A DNA stretch of 64,000 nt from Parolsenella massiliensis (lineage in GTDB: Bacteria; Actinomycetota; Coriobacteriia; Coriobacteriales; Atopobiaceae): contig NZ_LT671675.1 of the NCBI RefSeq assembly GCF_900143685.1, forward strand, positions 1,543,985 to 1,607,984, written 5' to 3'. Shown in pieces: positions 18,297-62,958 of this stretch. The notes below the pieces were generated by a model. The model ran no database searches and had not been told where the DNA came from. It saw nothing but the letters and a program-made list of their open reading frames with translations. Numbering within the stretch: position 1 is the first letter of the stretch; each line of letters opens with the position of its first letter. A program made the position numbers and the translations under genes.

Positions 18297-18424
18297 CAAA
18301 AGGTGAGCAGGCAAAACGAGGACCTTCCGAGTAGACCAAGATCGGCCAACCCGTCTACCAGGCGTTTTAGCTGCGGGCTTTCGCCGGCTACTCGGGCGAA
18401 CGCATTTTGTCTGCTCACCTTTTG
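18297..18424. repeat. Dispersed structured element, copy A (about 125 bp)
   Basis: Outer arms GGTGAGCAGGCAAAACG (about 18302-18317) and CGCATTTTGTCTGCTCACC (about 18401-18419) are flanked by AAAA/TTTT. An inner arm CCGAGTAG (18327-18334) pairs with CTACTCGG (18388-18395). Between them, GTAGAC can instead pair with GTCTAC (18352-18357), so two exclusive folds are possible. It shares ACCC-TCTACCAGGC with copy B. Confidence 0.75.
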
Positions 18425-18448
18425 GGGTCGCCACCCCGGCACACGCGT

Positions 18449-18567
18449 AAGTGAGCGGGCAAAACGCGAACCCACGAGTAGACCGAAAAACGGCAACCCA
18501 TCTACCAGGCATTTCCCCAGCGAGCGACACGCGTCTACTCGAGAGACCCCATTTTGCCCGCTCACTT
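18449..18567. repeat. Dispersed structured element, copy B (119 bp)
   Basis: Outer arms AAGTGAGCGGGCAAAACG (18449-18466) and CATTTTGCCCGCTCACTT (18550-18567); inner arms CGAGTAGAC (18475-18483) and GTCTACTCG (18533-18541). The outer arms match those of copy C at 61239. Copies A and B are separated by only 24 bp. They and the inverted repeat at 18593 fill the 509-bp gap 18213-18721, in which no gene was recognised. Confidence 0.8.
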
Positions 18568-18592
18568 TGTCGTCCCGTCCGTGTCAGCGGAA

Positions 18593-61138: not shown

Positions 61139-61164
61139 CCGCTCGCAGACCCGCTTGAAACGCC

Positions 61165-61203
61165 AAGGCCGGTGGCCCACAAAACGGGCCACCGGCCTTT
61201 TTC
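61165..61203 (+). terminator. Terminator of the amino-acid permease gene
   Basis: AAGGCCGGTGGCCC-acaaaac-GGGCCACCGGCCTT followed by TTTCG. Confidence 0.9.
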
Positions 61204-61238
61204 GTGCCTCGAGAGTGCCACGAGACACATTCAATTCG

Positions 61239-61361
61239 CTAAGTGAGCGGGCAAAACCCAACTCTCTGAGTAGTCCCCGATTTTTTGCTCGAAAAAGTCC
61301 TGCTAGACGAGCTGCCGTTTTTCACCCTACTCACGCAGGCGCGTTTTGCCCGCTCACTTAG
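61239..61361. repeat. Dispersed structured element, copy C (123 bp)
   Basis: Perfect 19-bp outer arms CTAAGTGAGCGGGCAAAAC (61239-61257) and GTTTTGCCCGCTCACTTAG (61343-61361). Inner arms GAGTAG (61268-61273) and CTACTC (61327-61332). It lies between convergent genes. The outer arms match copy B at 18449 almost perfectly although the internal sequence differs. Confidence 0.85.
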
Positions 61362-61387
61362 CACACGAGTCCCGCAATAAGCCGTCA

Positions 61388-62449
61388 CTAGCTATCGAAT
61401 AGCGTCGTCCAATTCGAAAAGAGCTCGGCGAATAGGGCGTTTTGAGCCCGAATGGTACGAGCGTCTGGAACCGGGCACCTCTGGCCCACACGCTCGGCGA
61501 TAAATCGAAGCATCTCCTCGCGCTGATTGGCATCTCTGAGCTGCCTACTCGTCAGGAACAGAACGTCATGGCCCATTCGCTGAAGTGCGGCCAGTCTATC
61601 TGCGTCAGAGAGGACCGACTCGTTCGAGGCATGCGCAGCCATGCCTTGGCATTCAATCGAAAGAGGTCTTCCTCCCTCGACGCCCTCATGAAACAGGTCG
61701 ACATAACAAACATCTTGAGCCGCCATCGCCCGTGATGAAGAGCTCAGCTCGATTCGTCTGTTGTTCTCGAACCCTACAAGTCCGCAGCCGCCAACGGCCT
61801 TGGGAAACGTCAGCAGAGCACTCACTTGGACCTCTAGCGGTGACGCGACAACCCCGTTGACCATGGAAAGCGCCCTTTCGAGCTTCTTTGCGCCACGGAT
61901 TCCAGAGGCGACCTTGGAGAACTCAAGCAACTCGCCAATCTCGACAAGCGGCTTCCTCTGCCACAGATTCGTTGGCCTTCCGACGGAATCAATCACCCGT
62001 CGCCACGGGCAAGGCACGCGGGCCGCGATATCCGCTCGGCAATCCGCAAGCATGCGCTCGATATGAGCGGGCGGCTCAAACACGGAGAAGTAGCCTGTCA
62101 TCTCATATGCCGCAAGCGCAAGCTTTGTAACCGTCAGCTTTCTCCCCATCGTGAGCAAGGTAAGCCCCGGATTCGCCACCCGGAGGCCGAGGTCGCTCTC
62201 AACAATCGAGCCAAAGGGCAGATCGCCTTGGACAAGCTGCCAATCAATACCCCTGGAACTCGATCTGGCCGCACGACTCCGAGCCAGACAAGACAGGGGC
62301 AATCCAAGCACGCCGCGCACGAGAGGATGGGAATAGAGCGCCTCGCGATGGACGTCGCGCGCCTGGGAGATGGGTGGCAGCAGCCCAAGCACCTGAGGCG
62401 GGACGCGATAAAAGCGAAACGCAGAGGTGCCCGCGAGGACGGGTGGCAT
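61388..62449 (-). CDS. Orphan protein with possible nuclease-like C-terminal domain
   Basis: 353 aa, ATG at 62449 with a GGGAGGGACC site. No family recognised with confidence. The C-terminal part SIECQGMAAHASNESVLSDA followed by DRLAALQRMGHDVLFLTSRQ has the E-x-Q/G, then 'D...R..AL...G..V' layout of DUF559/Vsr-like PD-(D/E)XK nuclease folds found in actinobacterial AbiEi-type orphans. Catalytic residues cannot be assigned. No partner toxin or restriction gene is adjacent. The gene is less GC-rich in third positions and sits beside repeat copy C, suggesting acquired DNA. Confidence 0.55.
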   Translation of the reverse strand: MPPVLAGTSAFRFYRVPPQVLGLLPPISQARDVHREALYSHPLVRGVLGLPLSCLARSRAARSSSRGIDWQLVQGDLPFGSIVESDLGLRVANPGLTLLTMGRKLTVTKLALAAYEMTGYFSVFEPPAHIERMLADCRADIAARVPCPWRRVIDSVGRPTNLWQRKPLVEIGELLEFSKVASGIRGAKKLERALSMVNGVVASPLEVQVSALLTFPKAVGGCGLVGFENNRRIELSSSSRAMAAQDVCYVDLFHEGVEGGRPLSIECQGMAAHASNESVLSDADRLAALQRMGHDVLFLTSRQLRDANQREEMLRFIAERVGQRCPVPDARTIRAQNALFAELFSNWTTLFDS

Positions 62450-62763
62450 GTTGGTCCCTCCCCTTTCGCCAGACAGCGAGTCAATGCTAGGGGATGCGTG
62501 CGCCCTTCAAGAGTGCGCGGTCCATCGGCACCCAACAGGAACCTGACAAAACCTGACAGCTGTTTTTTCGCATGAGAACGAACAAAGTCGCAGGTACGAG
62601 CCGCGTCGATTACAGCATGGTTGTGAAGGCAGCATGAACGAGAGCGCCATAAACCACTCAGCGATTGGCCCTTGCAATTTCCTTACAGACAGACTCGTCC
62701 CGCTTTGCTATCATGCCCATGTCATCGAGACGGCCACGTGCCCAGACACCGAGGAGGTGCCCC
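62450..62763. other. Intergenic region upstream of the mgtA leader
   Basis: About 310 bp. A direct repeat CCTGACAAAACCTGACAGCTG followed by six Ts (about 62541-62567) could be a weak terminator or operator. The mgtA promoter is probably near 62683-62714 (TTACAG ... TATCAT, spacing longer than ideal). No gene was recognised. Confidence 0.4.
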
Positions 62764-62865
62764 ATGTCCGAAGGTTCCAGTCACAGTCACAGTCGCAGAA
62801 CCCAGGTCCCACAGTCCGTGGAGGAGGCGACCGCCCTCGGGATGGCGGTCGCTCGTCGCGCGTAG
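62764..62865 (+). CDS. 33-codon leader ORF upstream of mgtA
   Basis: Starts with ATG at 62764 after a very good GAGGAGGTG ribosome site and encodes MSEGSSHSHSRRTQVPQ then SVEEATALGMAVARRA. The last third lies in a strong hairpin (GCGACCGCC-ctcgggat-GGCGGTCGC, 62827-62852). Further hairpins follow before mgtA: GCACAT-g-ATGTGC (62886-62898) and GGGCCC...GGGCCC (62904-62928). The layout (short ORF, hairpin, Mg2+ ATPase) recalls MgtL-type leader control, but it is not homologous to MgtL. Confidence 0.55.
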   Translation: MSEGSSHSHSRRTQVPQSVEEATALGMAVARRA

Positions 62866-62958
62866 CCGCAGGCCGTCGCGCGGTCGCACATGATGTGCCT
62901 CCAGGGCCCAGGCGTCTAGCCGGGGCCCTTCTCGTATCCCGGGATTGCGAGGTGCGCC

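Follow-up and report, generated by a model that had tools for sequence, protein, structure and literature searches.

Copies A and B, two tandem palindromic sequences in the genome of Parolsenella massiliensis, were found to belong to a widespread family of short palindromic DNA repeats located between the genes of Olsenella- and Collinsella-related gut bacteria. The reading that we favour, with about even confidence, is a BIME-1-like dispersed non-coding DNA element in which putative lineage-specific protein sites (the arms) are arranged around a class-wide core site. The genome (G000) is one contig of 2,009,306 bp, and the window, which is the whole stretch of 64,000 bp that was analysed, spans positions 1,543,985–1,607,984 of it. 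Another genome of the same genus is referred to as G001.

The element consists of two inverted outer arms of ~18 bp, an inner inverted pair and a core of ~22 bp in the middle. Copy A spans 18300–18421 (122 bp) on the plus strand, which is the strand reading the core as CAACCCGTCTACCAGGCGTTTT, and corresponds to the covariance-model match G000:C1:1562284-1562405 (110.5 bits). The sequence and the alignment of copies place its outer left arm at 18303–18318, inner left arm GAGTAGAC at 18329–18336, inner right arm GGCTACTC at 18386–18393 and outer right arm at 18405–18418, and the sequence and the core profile place its central core at 18347–18368, all on the plus strand. On the same strand and by the same means, copy B spans 18448–18568 (121 bp; G000:C1:1562432-1562552, 116.3 bits) with the outer left arm at 18451–18466, inner left arm GAGTAGAC at 18476–18483, central core at 18494–18515, inner right arm GTCTACTC at 18533–18540 and outer right arm at 18552–18565; an ABC gene adjoins this copy. 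A third copy of 121 bp lies on the minus strand at 61240–61360 (G000:C1:1605224-1605344:-, 118.3 bits), its core being read from the sequence at 61293–61314 on that strand. The initial annotation had put A and B at 18297–18424 and 18449–18567 and a third copy at 61239, and had described outer inverted arms, inner GAGTAG/CTACTC arms and a central TCTACC, all of which were confirmed with the model boundaries given here. Beside the third copy, the codon-based gene finder called no gene over more than 1.8 kb (61139–62958), a region that may code with unusual composition.

The nucleotide search of G000 returned eight matches at six places, amounting to seven copies. The exact-arm pattern GTGAGCGGGCAAA-N76..92-TTTGCCCGCTCAC was present at six places in G000 and had no match in G001. 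The single-strand DNA folds of A and B gave z-scores between -3.1 and -6.5, and because these scores were accompanied by six exact-arm matches against 0 for the reversed control, the repeats stand far above chance. More than ten intergenic copies, sought with a covariance model, had been named beforehand as support for the repeat, and a model built from the seven own copies found 15 places in G000 at E ≤ 1e-4 (14 full and one partial), a count to be taken as at least 15 since 150 of the 306 first-look candidates were scored. The full copies were 121 bp long in 12 cases, 120 bp in one and 122 bp in one. Across the family, matches at E ≤ 0.001 were obtained in 33 of 140 genomes and 8 of 35 genera under strict filters with 25 candidates scored per genome, and the copy number was low, about 5–20 per genome. 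No description of this repeat family was found among the literature titles and abstracts searched; subscription papers lie outside that set, and one may be in print there.

Copies with unrelated arm sequences share one anatomy, in that inverted arms surround a conserved core, near CAAGCCGTCTACCTGCGGTTTT, at a fixed spacing. Small palindromic repeats usually keep their ends while the middle drifts. Here, the alignment showed outer arms that differ wholly between lineages (GTGAGCGGGCAAA, GAAATTCCGAGGCTAAA, GGGTACTTTTT and AAACCTGCGGCTTAATAGCA), yet are complementary inside each copy, around a conserved centre, and the first 16 arm pairs of 80 distinct copies were Watson-Crick in 1184 of 1280 cells, as terminal inverted repeats would be. 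The core profile, made from 85 distinct windows, was strongest at T(C)TACC(T)GC and the T run after it. The offset of the core was 49 in 34 of the 36 copies of 121 bp, 40 in all 20 copies of 103 bp and 36 in all seven copies of 87 bp. Element length is nearly locked within a lineage, at 120–122 bp in G000. Lengths scatter more in genus g33 (112–125 bp), where the member G087 has nine copies of 121 bp and one of 120 bp, and where in some copies (L062, L064 and L067) the sequence of the outer arm recurs in the inner arms, which puts a hairpin on each side of the core.

In genus g34, which we infer to be Tractidigestivibacter and its relatives, the arm pattern AACYTGCGGSTTAATWGCA was present in seven of eight genomes with 0 matches of the reversed control. 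Among the arm pairs listed there (at least 51, non-overlapping and inverted), 50 were exactly 80 bp apart and one 81 bp, and over 80 partly overlapping loci the spacing was 80 in 87 of 97 pairs. The inner arms are of GAGTAG type in G000 and of GAGAAG type in Tractidigestivibacter, and three more arm types were found in the Collinsella copies, whose anatomy is the same. Two side observations concern the arms. A nest of four arms (+, +, -, -) in L354 (G119:C25 near 351.6 kb) looks like the recombination product of two elements. At one orthologous place in Collinsella (L266 versus L213), another palindrome (TGCGGTGAAATA...) has hairpins CGGACTG or GTTCCTG, the two arms having changed at once.

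The initial annotation had read A and B as a structured RNA, whether riboswitch, attenuator or small RNA, whose stems are mutually exclusive, and the strong folding of both copies is in keeping with this. When the long structure was followed in the seven own copies, both sides had changed in 3 of 23 pairs, which was matched by 1 of 500 shuffles, with two of the three in copy A, and the RNAalifold covariation term was 0.07. In the same seven copies, the long inner stem paired in 89.8% of cells with one both-sided pair, and the short alternative stem (GTAGAC with the core GTCTAC) paired in 81% of cells with 0 both-sided changes. Both of the proposed folds can be drawn, but the alternative stem shows no covariation and is not conserved as a pairing (GAGTAG against GAGAAG inner arms). 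The evidence for compensatory change, which had been expected of the arms, is mixed, with these three pairs on one side and largely independent change in the sister copies on the other. Among 59 distinct g34 copies, all with a spacing of exactly 80, the arms mostly changed independently, the observed agreement against that expected under independence being 44/42.4 at position 11, 34/29.7 at position 12, 48/44.1 at position 16, 48/48.1 at position 20 and 30/34.4 at position 22; concordance above independence was found at positions 5 (51/36.6) and 18 (43/31.8).

An RNA that is read from a single strand would be expected to have more G-T than A-C mismatches, yet among the 1280 cells mentioned above 29 were G-T, 24 A-C and 43 other, and a strand-specific RNA from the element is thus unlikely. 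The position of the copies relative to genes pointed the same way. By a codon-based gene finder, 93 of 94 copies were intergenic, and the gaps were tandem for 47, convergent for 26 and divergent for 20, as compared with 116, 46 and 60, respectively, for background gaps >150 bp at the same loci; these 94 are a subset of all places found and include orthologous copies in related species, so that the counts are not independent events. In the tandem gaps, 18 copies were in gene sense and 29 opposite, rather than in the same-strand placement expected of a riboswitch, and no clear orientation preference was apparent. The Rfam search of the repeats gave just two hits, at chance level (E 7.1 and 7.7). 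These results make the structured-RNA reading highly improbable and lend no support to its riboswitch or attenuator form. The intergenic position without clear orientation, the lack of strand asymmetry and the mostly independent arms agree better with a DNA repeat of MITE or BIME type. Of the initial annotation, a repeat family of more than ten intergenic copies, a conserved inverted anatomy and the alternative of a MITE-like element were upheld. We read the arms as duplicate DNA sites, mostly drifting apart with some coordinate change. In view of the both-sided changes and the concordance at arm positions 5 and 18, pairing of the arms may be needed, for example as a DNA hairpin.

The manner in which the element spreads was examined by comparing genomes. 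G001 and G000 share three places, at 1609715, 1101692 and 1117904, the G000 copy at the last being partial. At three collinear loci, G001 is without the element (the tandem pair 762389/762548, 778866 and 1671558), and neither a target duplication nor a base-exact junction could be read at these three loci because the intergenic flanks have diverged. The genes flanking A and B are also missing in G001. Positions differ between genera, since among the flanking proteins of the 94 copies only one pair, of high identity, had the same gene end (G000_1270037 and L155, 71%), and many copies in genus g34 are at positions common to sister species. The empty-site comparison in Collinsella gave no clean site, L266 having a general loss of about 250 bp.

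A rival reading is a MITE, a non-autonomous DNA transposon whose outer arms would be terminal inverted repeats on which a transposase from another locus acts, with the core as an internal passenger or a second transposase site. The near-perfect arms, the scatter in intergenic DNA, the presence or absence at three loci between two species and the near lack of positions common to genera all agree with it. MITEs conserve their ends while the inside drifts. Here, however, the inside core is kept between genera and the ends are exchanged, and no target duplication was seen at the loci lacking the element in G001. A larger element with the same ends was not found in G000 either, where every one of the seven arm matches without mismatch, and each element-related match with one mismatch, belonged to a pair of 99–100 bp, in a check that took in part of the one-mismatch single arms. 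We therefore regard a MITE as rather unlikely.

Mobilisation by a RAYT, an IS200-like tyrosine transposase, would make the repeat a REPIN- or TIR-type element. Of the 140 family genomes, 95 had a Y1_Tnp match, 28 of the 33 element-bearing ones among them. In G014 and G016, an arsC-like and RAYT gene pair has the 87-bp form on both sides as direct repeats, and the arms of this form are hairpins of RAYT type. A check for REP units (20–40 bp, unpaired GTAG at one end) found GTAG in the inner arms and, reversed, in the core, the outer arms pairing across the element. Against the RAYT reading, Y1_Tnp had no match in five of the 33 element-bearing genomes (G015, G084, G087, G096 and G134), both RAYT genes of G000 have inverted repeats of their own that are unlike the element arms, and the g34 arms differ from the repeats around the g34 RAYT genes. 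RAYT is a local and not a general partner of the element, because it is linked in G014 and G016 and its repeats in G000 and g34 differ from the arms; as a universal mobiliser it was rejected, the association being found in genus g9 only. The RAYT reading as a whole is accordingly improbable. As further observations on these genes, the arsC-like and RAYT genes in L132 (G016) and L136 (G014) are flanked by directly repeated 150-bp clusters, each of RAYT-type hairpins together with the core, like a small composite transposon, and L147 (959–1109, G000:C1 near 1374509) contains a perfect 75-bp duplication that includes one RAYT-gene terminal repeat.

The core extends well beyond the palindromes. 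With ≤3 mismatches, the core 22-mer was present in 91 of the 140 genomes of the family, which represent 27 of its 35 genera (reversed control 0/140), in 11 of 24 genomes of the order's other families and in 4 of 46 of the class's other orders (control matches 2/79). In the phylum's other classes, it matched 5 of 74 genomes and the control also matched four. Because the matches exceed the control inside the class and are about equal to it elsewhere in the phylum, the core is a motif of the whole class and does not reach beyond it. When the exact 19-mer was searched against one genome per species (84,980 species), 57 stretches matched, 45 of them with record names of Collinsella, Tractidigestivibacter, Olsenella, Atopobiaceae, Eggerthellaceae or Coriobacteria type, and at least eight others look like chance matches, some apparently in sigma-factor genes. 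The core was also found alone, without arms, in family genomes. Its strands were mixed in G087, which bears on a replication polarity of Ter or KOPS type. Three cores of the same orientation, spaced 169 bp apart, lie inside a tandem repeat in L319 (G007:C11). A coding function of the core was rejected by eye, as the frequent CTAGC variants introduce a stop codon in one of the frames, while in another frame the position that varies most is a second codon position. Integron-like cassette arrays, hinted at by same-orientation core pairs in one contig, were rejected on the genes seen at seven of the nine loci inspected: by translations, five (L308, L309, L315, L316 and L318) have ordinary-looking genes between the core copies, and L310 and L311 contain integrases.

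The core occurs in eight viral stretches, and in four of the six whose genes were inspected an integrase-type ORF lies within 600 bp of it. The integrase ORF matches PF00589 in L270, L272 and L277, which are mutually related, and in L275 the integrase SAM domain is above its cut-off and PF00589 below its own. The viral stretches examined in L274 and L276 contained no integrase, the core of L276 being between two non-integrase genes. In L271 and L273 (IMG/VR), arms reading GGGGGAT/ATCCCCC enclose the core in an AT-rich viral contig, and phages too may therefore have the anatomy. Taking viral and bacterial loci together, the core is 46–590 bp from integrase ORFs in L270, L272, L277, L275, L234, L310 (twice) and L311. 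Among the bacterial loci, a PF00589 ORF is near the core in L234 (228 bp), in L225 (about 1.2 kb), which comes from the same region of the record as L311, and at each of the two cores of L310. In L310 and L311, an integrase-bearing stretch has a core on either side; by eye, no integrase was noticed in five of the seven bacterial core loci inspected. Furthermore, a core-like copy lies about 50–90 bp downstream of a xerD-like gene (PF00589 with SAM domain) in G001, G059 and G000, with 3, 5 and 7 mismatches, respectively, and a full element takes this place in G115 and G119. We take the gene to be xerD, with pyrG as the probable upstream gene. A core-like copy or full element after the xerD-like gene was noted in L373, L374, L375, L378 and L379, which represent three genera.

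The core might on these grounds be an attachment site of tyrosine recombinases, attP in the phages and attB in the palindromes, the latter being chromosomal landing sites. Its closeness to integrase genes, the core pairs around the integrase-bearing stretches of L310 and L311, and the core copy or full element after the xerD-like gene are all consistent with this. No integrated element was found splitting a palindrome at its core, however, and in L234, L274 and L311 crossover is likelier at a tRNA fragment that adjoins the core. The viral core of L276 has non-integrase genes on either side, L270, L272 and L277 are not three independent cases as they are related, and the matches on the xerD side are weak at 3 to 7 mismatches. 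An attachment site proper consequently seems quite unlikely to us.

To return to the BIME-1-like element that we favour, a protein particular to each lineage would bind the outer arms and a factor common to the class would bind the core, and the fixed spacing would hold both in one compact looped or bent complex, by analogy with IHF between the inverted REPs of E. coli BIME-1. New copies would arise by transposition or recombination and then be inherited. Since phages carry the same core near integrase genes, the core factor may also serve in site-specific recombination. Several findings count against such a complex: the core also occurs alone, which a purely nucleoprotein complex does not predict, whole arms change together between lineages, the empty loci of G001 are not base-exact and have no target duplication, and lengths vary in g33. 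As a further step, an as yet undescribed factor found throughout Coriobacteriia could recognise the 22-bp core as an assembly point common to host palindromes, phage attachment regions and the site near xerD, which we suggest tentatively, as possible rather than probable. The model predicts a core-binding factor common to Coriobacteriia and lineage-specific arm-binding partners, and it would also account for a motif common to host chromosomes and phages. If this is true, the palindromes would represent a new type of modular nucleoprotein site in the chromosome, with a universal centre and ends that evolve with the partner protein of the lineage. Coriobacteriia are common in the human gut and, to our knowledge, little is known of their chromosome-organising and recombination factors.

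When compared with known systems, the elements share with the attP regions of phage tyrosine integrases the core motif that lies 46–590 bp from integrase genes in several mobile elements; the palindromes, in contrast, lack an integrase, and none was found to contain an inserted phage. They resemble MITEs in being short, non-coding, dispersed between genes and bounded by inverted terminal arms, and differ from them in the conserved centre and exchangeable ends, with no target duplication seen and no parent transposon noticed in G000. With the REPINs, REPtrons and TIRtrons of RAYT systems (PMC3733652), they have in common inverted dimers of palindromic repeats in intergenic DNA, around a RAYT gene in some cases (genus g9), whereas the arms in G000 and g34 are unlike RAYT-flanking repeats and the core spacer is conserved across genera. 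That source had 0 occurrences of Coriobacter, Eggerthella or Actinobacteria, and a term search in PMC6006769 likewise gave 0 occurrences. BIME-1 of E. coli (RIB/RIP) has two inverted REPs flanking an IHF-binding sequence (PMC2817692), and the elements described here are like it in their intergenic position and in two close inverted palindromic units with a site between them, at a fixed core offset; host-factor binding is known for BIME-1 from the same source. They differ from BIME-1 in having no REP sequence, in lineage-specific arms that pair across the element, and in being strict in length and few in each genome. The 22-bp core is presumably also unlike the IHF consensus. What sets the family apart from the usual small palindromic repeats is the class-wide centre, the ends swapped between lineages and the near-fixed spacing.
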